DNA of 64,000 nucleotides from contig NC_088321.1 in NCBI RefSeq assembly GCF_910592395.1, forward strand, positions 15,004,001-15,068,000. The letters are read 5' to 3'. The stretch is from Lineus longissimus. Its lineage: Eukaryota > Nemertea > Pilidiophora > Heteronemertea > Lineidae. Positions 45,701 to 48,700 of the stretch are shown here, piece by piece (the first letter of the stretch is position 1; every line of letters begins with the position of its first letter). Under the pieces are notes generated by a model, which worked only from the letters and a program-made list of their open reading frames with translations, had not been told where the DNA came from and did no database searches. The translations under genes and the position numbers were made by a program.

Positions 45701-48700
45701 AATTTCCAAAAATAGAGGTCTGAAAAGTACAAAAGGCTACCACTTGCCAAACAATGGCTTTAGTGCTTTACAATGAGTCATGGTATGGACTCGTCAAGTG
45801 AACCCAACTCAAAACTTCCAGGTTGGAACTACATGTAGATTGATTGAAAGAATCTATTTGTCAACGCTATGTTTAGCTGTAACAAGGTGGTACGCGTGTA
45901 TTGATATTCATAAACCAGGCGGTGACCAGTGTGTTATTGATTACTTGAATGATTGGAATCCAGGAATTGTTAGTGTATTTCATCTATTTGCACCAAGGAC
46001 ATATTCCGATGGATTGGGTGGGAACCTGTTTCTGAATGATGGGTGCTGCTCCTGTCTGTTGGCTGTCAAACTACAAATGTCAACAAATGTCACCTGTTTT
46101 CAATCAGAAGTTGAACGTGATTATGCCATCCACTCATCATGTTGGTGAAAGTTGCGTCTGCATTTGATATCGAATTGTTTGTTTACATTGAAATCGACCT
46201 CTATAATCAGAACACCTCTAAATTAAGGACGGAACTTGTCAATCCAATGGCCCAGGGTGTTCTTGATAGAGAGGTTCTGCTGTTTTTGTTCACTGCTTGG
46301 ACGAAACTGATTGAAAAGAAAATGGTGAATGGGACAACCGAGTGCCAGTGGGCTGTGACAGAGTTGTCCCCTGCTGCCCCCTTTTGGGCAGGTACAACAT
46401 CGCAGGTATAAACATAATCAGCCCCAAGCTTTGTTCAACAAATATGAGTCATATGGATTTTTGTCGGTGAAATAATACACCTCCATGTGGCGTATTGGTT
46501 TATGAATCAGATTGAGATAAACTGGAATGACATCGTGCTTTATACGGCTCTGATGGCATACGATCCGTTATTGATCGTATAAATGGGCTGTGTTTTATAA
46601 AGCTGTTGCATTGAAAACTTATCGAAGTTGCAATATGTGGCGTGGGATCCGTTGATATTTGCTATAGATTCACAGCACGGGATACACATGGAGAGGACAT
46701 TTGTGTAATTTACACTTGCATCTAGTATGGTGATACTCTTCATGTAGTTGAACTGCTGTCGGGAGACACTCATGTTTTTTGTAACTCAGGAAAATTCATT
46801 ATACTGAAGTGACATTGGATCTACATGTATTAATATTTCTCTGTGTATACAACACATTGTTAGACATTTTTTGTGGTGGATATTGACATTTAAAATCCAC
46901 TTCCGTAGTGTGCCATCACCTCCACTGCTTTCACCTTTTTGAGTTGAGACAGCTGACTCAGGTTGGATCCAGTTGTGCCATTCCTTTCTGGATTTTAACA
47001 TGAAATTCGCCTTGGATGAACAGTCATGCACTAATTTTGGGTCTTCGGGTTTGAGTTCACTGTGAGGACATTTTAGTTGACCTTTTTGCTGGTCTCCGTT
47101 GATCAGATCAGACCCCCCAGACCCCTCGAGACCCCCCCCCCCCCGCCCGACTGGTGGTGTGTTGTAATCTGGCCGACTTGAACCACTTCAGTACTTGAAC
47201 CACTTCAGTACTTGAACATTCCCAGGATTTCTCCTCTTCTATTTGTGGATCAAAACCTGAATGACCAATTAGTTTTCACCATTGAATACTATACTATACT
47301 AATTGGATTATATTCAATTGGCCGTCAATCAAGGATATAATTGACTGTCAATCAAAGCCAATTAGTGCTCCACTAATCTGGTATCACTTTTCCTGTGATT
47401 TTCTAAAATCATTCAGAGGACAGGGTGTGTTAGGGAATAAGATAGGTAGGACAGAAATATCATTTTCATCATTCCTAGACAGAGGCCTACATCACATGTT
47501 GCCTTTTGATAAGTTTGTGACGAAGACATAGAGATTTTGAATTCAGCATTTCTTATGATTTGAGAATGAGATCATATCTGCTCAATTTCAAGAACTAAAT
47601 TCAGGGTTCCAGCGATTTTTCTGAGGGAAAATCTTTTTCGGTGGATAGAGTATACTATAGCTGACCTTCGAAGAAAAACTATTAGTTCGTTACTGTAAAA
47701 TTCCTGATGTTGTCCAATTCGACTTATCACCAAGTCCGCAGCAAACACGTCTCGCCAAAACAGCTGCGTAAAACCAAAATGGTGGATTACACGACACGTT
47801 ATACGGCGAACCAGCTGTATTGTGATGAGGATTATCACATGATATGGAAAGGTACGCGAGTTCGCGAGCAGGGACTTCAAACTTCTTTTGGGTGCCTGGC
47901 CATAGAAGGGTTCTTCACAGGGTTTTCTCTGGTAGGGTGGTACCCTTGATATTCGAGTTTTGCCAGTGTCTAACACAACAGGTGGCCAGCAATTAAAGGT
48001 AGAGTGGCCCTCTAAAAACCCTCTACTAACTCCTAGAGTAAGGCAGCCTGGCTCTTCTAAGGTAGGGTGGGCCGCCCTGACGAATGGCCTATGGAGAACA
48101 CTGCCAACCTAATAAAAGTGAAGTGTCTATTTAGGCTGAGCAGTGACGTTGGAAGGACAGTCATTTTGGATTTCAGTCTGGGGTTTTAAATCATTTCTCC
48201 CTATTGCAGTTATAGTGATTGGCGATACTGGTACTCACAAAGCAGACCTCATCCACCAGTTTTGTAAAACAGATAATAAAAAAAAGACAATTGGCGTTGA
48301 TTTTTGTACTCGGTATGTCACATGATTCGGAATTTTGACACCCGACACCTGTCACTTTCTCCTGAACAATCCCACCTCTTTCTATAGCTTTTATTCTGCC
48401 CCAAGCGGAAGGGGTATACCTCATGATTACCGAGTGACGCTTGATTGATCCCACCTTCCCGTTATGTTTTGCAGTTGTGCTAATAGGGGACTCTGGTGTC
48501 GGCAAAAGTAATCTATTGTCCAGATTTACGAGAAACGAATTCAACTTGGAGAGCAAGAGCACAATAGGAGTAGAATTTGCAACTAGGTAAGTGATTGATA
48601 TTAGTTCATGAACCCACCACTAGGGGGTACTCTTGCATTATGCTTCAAGCCTTCTCCCTGGAATATCGTCCTCCTGCGCTTATCTGACAGCCCTACGTCC

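Follow-up and report, generated by a model that had tools for sequence, protein, structure and literature searches.

A single Rab11 gene of the ribbon worm Lineus longissimus, located within the window (the whole stretch of 64,000 nucleotides that was analysed), appears to offer three points of choice, namely between two first exons (1a or 1b), two versions of exon 2 (2a or 2b) and two last exons (6a or 6b), a layout to which we give even chances. Exon 2b is an altered copy of the exon that carries the P-loop, and we consider it about equally easy to believe and to doubt that it serves as a mutually exclusive alternative to exon 2a in a Rab11 protein predicted to be deficient in nucleotide binding.

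The canonical exons are all located on the forward strand and encode a protein of 216 residues when exons 1a, 2a, 3, 4, 5 and 6a are joined. The coding part of the first exon 1a spans positions 42794-42833 (13 residues) and is followed by exon 2a with the P-loop GDSGVGKS (48475-48586; 112 bases), exon 3 (49151-49234), exon 4 (49701-49894), exon 5 (50250-50330) and the coding part of the last exon 6a with its stop codon (51632-51771). In a protein alignment, the residues of the worm exon 2a stretch are unchanged from human Rab11A.

A protein search with the product of exons 1b and 2b recovered an NCBI record of 249 amino acids, ‘ras-related protein Rab-11B-like isoform X2 [Lineus longissimus]’ (here P0001), which is reproduced letter for letter by exon 1b (coding part 47707-47851, forward strand), exons 2a, 3, 4 and 5, and the last exon 6b (forward strand, coding from 56254 to the end of its stop codon at 56387). 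Isoform models of this kind at NCBI usually have transcript alignments as their basis. A word search of the Lineus longissimus genome note gave no mention of RNA data (PMC8593623). Exon 6b is located about 4.5 kb downstream of exon 6a in a phase that fits exon 5 and encodes a different hypervariable tail, with the 6a and 6b tails both ending in CCST.

The sequence-only reading had placed the start of exon 1b at the inner ATG at position 47779, which has a better start context than the ATG at 47707 as judged by eye and may serve as an additional start, whereas P0001 begins at the upstream ATG. A query with the N-terminus recovered, together with P0001, a JGI metagenome protein (P0002) from a contig of 2228 bases, in which 37 of the 48 residues of exon 1b are identical, with 22 matches among the 24 core residues and 15 among the 24 of the upstream extension, and the reading frame continues beyond the end of exon 1b, as expected of genomic DNA. 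These matches indicate that exon 1b is conserved in another animal, which we infer to be probably a nemertean. No relatives of the P0002 exon 1b were confirmed in the viral_contigs and genome_contigs collections, none of exons 1b and 2b together were confirmed in viral_contigs, and no solved structure resembled exon 1b at E-values up to 10. The last nine residues of exons 1b and 1a are alike (4 of 20000 draws, p ~0.0002). We do not conclude from this that exon 1b is a duplicate of exon 1a because Rab proteins have a common motif where the two ends resemble each other.

Exon 2b (48210-48312, forward strand; 103 bases) is located 162 bp upstream of exon 2a, is three codons shorter and has the P-loop sequence GDTGTHKA, flanked by usable GT/AG sites and with an open reading frame. 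The canonical protein matches exon 2b in a tblastn search against the window with E = 4.6e-5, and the homology fits both splice sites, which together rule out a chance resemblance. Ranked with simple weights, the 2b acceptor falls among the top 1.4% of AGs and its donor among the top 3.4% of GTs in positions 42900-56200, which places both in the range of sites from working exons and ahead of the 2a acceptor (2.3%) and the exon 3 donor (9.0%). As had been noticed in the sequence-only reading, exons 1b (from 47779 to 47851) and 2b lie between exons 1a and 2a with GT/AG borders and the same phases.

The predicted protein that starts with exons 1b and 2b belongs to the Rab11 subfamily, being closest to Rab11A chains (E 3.6e-95). 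The 2b form scores 190 bits against the Pfam Ras model, compared to 219 bits for the canonical form, and the two forms searched against NCBIfam each matched the general small_GTP model. Searched on its own, exon 2b is most similar to Ypt31 (E 8.7e-4), followed by Rab11A (from E 3.9e-3), with Rab23 nearby (E 5.3e-3) and Rab4 and Rab7 also close behind the Rab11 and Ypt31 chains. We therefore favor an origin of exon 2b from exon 2a rather than from another Rab gene, which the similarities suggest and do not prove. A decayed copy of exon 3 with stop codons in all three frames lies directly downstream of exon 3 (49256-49330, forward strand), suggesting repeated exon duplication at this locus. Neither this copy nor exon 6b had featured in the sequence-only reading.

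Exons 2a and 2b are adjacent, homologous and equal in phase, and the frame is lost when both or neither of them are spliced in, with an early stop after either first exon; when both are included, the stop is codon 60 with exon 1a or codon 95 with exon 1b. A full-length protein can thus only be obtained by choosing one of the two. The same stops raise the question of whether exon 2b acts as a poison exon, which in combination with exon 2a would shift the frame, terminate translation after 59 or 94 residues and lower the level of Rab11 via mRNA decay. We think this very unlikely, since exon 2b bears marks of constraint at the protein level, whereas a poison exon requires neither a conserved protein sequence nor an open frame.

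The evidence for constraint comes from the pattern of differences between the two exons. Exon 2a and human Rab11A agree at every residue here, and we therefore presume that the 19 replacements and the loss of 9 bases occurred on the 2b side, where 15 of 34 residues still match exon 2a. The differences are distributed over the first, second and third codon positions as 13/34, 11/34 and 23/34. None of 4274 neutral simulations, matched for the observed number of changes at first and second positions, reached the observed BLOSUM sum. Among neutral runs that remained free of stop codons, the observed similarity was reached in 0/1238, 0/1324, 1/1562, 0/1188, 0/1445 and 2/1620 cases under six settings that combined three transition weights with two gap placements. 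The open frame and the splice sites are unconvincing by themselves, as 8-13% of the neutral runs had no stop codon and kept both the GT and the AG. The exon 3 relic has 58 matches, 11 mismatches and 4 indels (two of them of three bases), compared to 47 substitutions and a single in-frame indel in exon 2b, a difference with a Fisher p of 0.0097 based on small counts. Taken from a comparison within one genome, from which exon 2b is known, these patterns support protein-level constraint over much of the history of exon 2b, and this constraint may no longer act today.

One possibility that we take seriously without favoring it is that exon 2b is a disused duplicate, which once worked, lost its nucleotide-binding residues when it was no longer used and today is removed with the intron. 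The one named record found with exon 1b skips exon 2b, no record with exon 2b was found, the replacements G23H and S25A alter residues that a working GTPase would be expected to retain, and the nearby copy of exon 3 has clearly decayed. On the other hand, the splice sites and the frame of exon 2b are intact, and its replacements since the duplication are far more conservative than in the neutral runs. No protein record with exon 2b was found in the protein database within the length ranges searched, with the 1b-2b part among the queries. This is weak evidence, however, because the 1b-2b query also missed P0002, which was recovered by the N-terminus query, and because the database is clustered at 90%, whereby a record of the predicted 1b-2b-6b protein, which would match P0001 at 227 of 249 residues (about 91%), could be hidden in the cluster of P0001, which has three members.

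The sequence-only reading had interpreted exons 1b and 2b as a nested pair that encodes an alternative N-terminal half of the protein, a regulated decoy or pseudo-GTPase. A coordinated pair with its own promoter would agree with the adjacent location of the two exons, their equal phases and the frame of 224 residues that is indeed open when they are joined to exons 3 to 6a (248 residues with the upstream extension). But P0001, whose P-loop is normal, combines exon 1b with exon 2a and exon 6b, and this argues against a fixed pair. Moreover, exon 2b fits after exon 1a as well, and P0002 shows exon 1b alone. We consequently regard a coordinated pair as improbable and return to a separate choice between exons 2a and 2b as the preferred reading. 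The earlier observation is hence confirmed in part and its interpretation supported in part: the idea of a pseudo-GTPase form is plausible in view of the loss of the P-loop residues and of the protein-level constraint, the pairing is not supported, and the protein searches gave no sign that exon 2b is expressed.

With respect to the mechanism of the choice, no inverted repeats of at least 14 bases were found near exons 2b and 2a (47600-49160), and no Rfam model matched anywhere in the window at its gathering score, so that nothing in these searches points to a splicing switch. The introns contain a recurring motif that closely resembles CCTCTCTATTnAGGACA, on either strand, at positions 48851-48943, about 50040-50210 (by eye) and 53684-53718. 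A tandem repeat occupies 53915-54102, with a period of 104, 1.8 copies and 88% matches. Elsewhere in the window, a Pfam search of 10 of the 31 long open reading frames identified one MH1 (Smad N-terminal) domain, in an exon-like reading frame at 18640-19122 on the reverse strand (E 2.7e-21).

PseudoGTPases are defined by the loss of conserved residues in the nucleotide-binding motifs. In exon 2b, the G1 motif is changed from GDSGVGKS to GDTGTHKA, in agreement with this definition and with what had been read from the sequence before, by the replacements V22T, G23H and S25A, while K24, T43, I44 and F48 are kept. The three missing codons are best aligned as a loss of F36 to L38, and an alternative, equally good placement at the DNA level has F36 replaced rather than deleted. 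The S25N mutant of human Rab11 releases GDP rapidly, the K24R mutant has fast exchange and weakened nucleotide binding, the V22M mutant of Rab11B does not bind nucleotide, and F36 and L38 form a cap over the guanine ring, as has been reported (PMC6138693). According to the same source, the single mutations F36A or L38A do not greatly raise the intrinsic exchange (PMC6138693). Judging from these residues, the 2b form should hold nucleotide badly.

We propose that a transcript with exon 2b would give rise to a Rab11 protein with the later G boxes and a prenylated tail that hardly holds nucleotide, owing to the combination of V22T, G23H and S25A with the lost F36-L38 cap. Such a protein would resemble a locked-off or nucleotide-free form and could lower the output of Rab11 or occupy a Rab11 partner. 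The occupied partner would more likely be one other than the exchange factor SH3BP5. F36A is described to nearly abolish SH3BP5-driven exchange, residues F36 to I44 are characterized as extremely sensitive when mutated (PMC6138693), and T43, I44, F48 and W65 are stated to matter for SH3BP5-driven exchange (PMC6419104). Of the residues in contact with SH3BP5, exon 2b has T43, I44 and F48 but is missing F36 and L38, while W65 is encoded by the shared exon 3. A decoy for SH3BP5 is doubtful because F36 is needed for the exchange driven by this protein and is missing in exon 2b, which weakens the earlier decoy idea for this partner, although T43, I44 and F48 are still in its favor. In the structure of Ypt1 with TRAPPI, the residue equivalent to F36 is reported to be disordered (PMC6138693), so that TRAPPII may be a partner.

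The closest known kinds of systems are the choice between tandem-duplicated exons and the small GTPases that are altered by splicing. Tandem-duplicated mutually exclusive exons resemble exons 2a and 2b in being adjacent homologs of the same phase, with the frame broken by both or neither (PMC9741552; PMC5740500), and loss of the frame is one way by which exclusivity is kept in the human clusters (PMC5740500). The mutually exclusive use of exons 2a and 2b is predicted from the sequence, unlike in the human set (PMC9741552; PMC5740500). Furthermore, the human duplicated exons are described to maintain key functional residues, with mostly conservative changes (PMC9741552), whereas exon 2b has lost nucleotide-binding residues. 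RagB-long is likewise a small GTPase whose nucleotide site is changed by splicing; an N-terminal extension occurs as well, as in the Lineus Rab11, and the affinity for GTP is low, as predicted for the 2b form (PMC9481464). The difference is that RagB-long has an insertion of 28 residues in switch I, whereas exon 2b is a duplicate exon that exchanges the stretch with the P-loop and switch I (PMC9481464). Functional tests of RagB-long show that a splice form with low affinity for GTP can soak up a regulator in the manner of a sponge (PMC9481464).

The two last exons have counterparts in the KRAS4A and KRAS4B forms (PMC9882654) and in the brain and ubiquitous forms of Cdc42 (PMC13236570), where alternative last exons are described to encode different C-terminal targeting tails. 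However, these are Ras and Rho genes rather than Rab11, and the Lineus tails encoded by exons 6a and 6b both end in CCST. In a literature search of titles and the openings of abstracts, with most subscription journals outside its range, we found no Rab11 gene with such exons and no splicing event that abolishes the function of the Rab11 P-loop.

In its widest form, our hypothesis would be that ribbon worms splice a nucleotide-free, partner-binding Rab11 by an exon choice that is both kept and regulated, with the N-terminus and the targeting tail also being chosen, so that a switch essential to recycling endosomes would be converted by splicing, an idea that we regard as unlikely in its entirety. 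Rab11 has mostly been studied through artificial mutants that are locked on or locked off (PMC6138693). The serine that is changed in the laboratory mutant S25N of Rab11A is the same that is altered in exon 2b, which differs in being natural, in having alanine at this position and in the additional changes V22T, G23H and the loss of F36-L38 (PMC6138693). If our interpretation is true, a natural exon that abolishes nucleotide binding and leaves the rest of the protein unchanged would represent a built-in version of the locked-mutant experiment. Together with the alternative N-terminus and tail, this would make for a multi-isoform Rab11 gene, provided that exon 2b is used.
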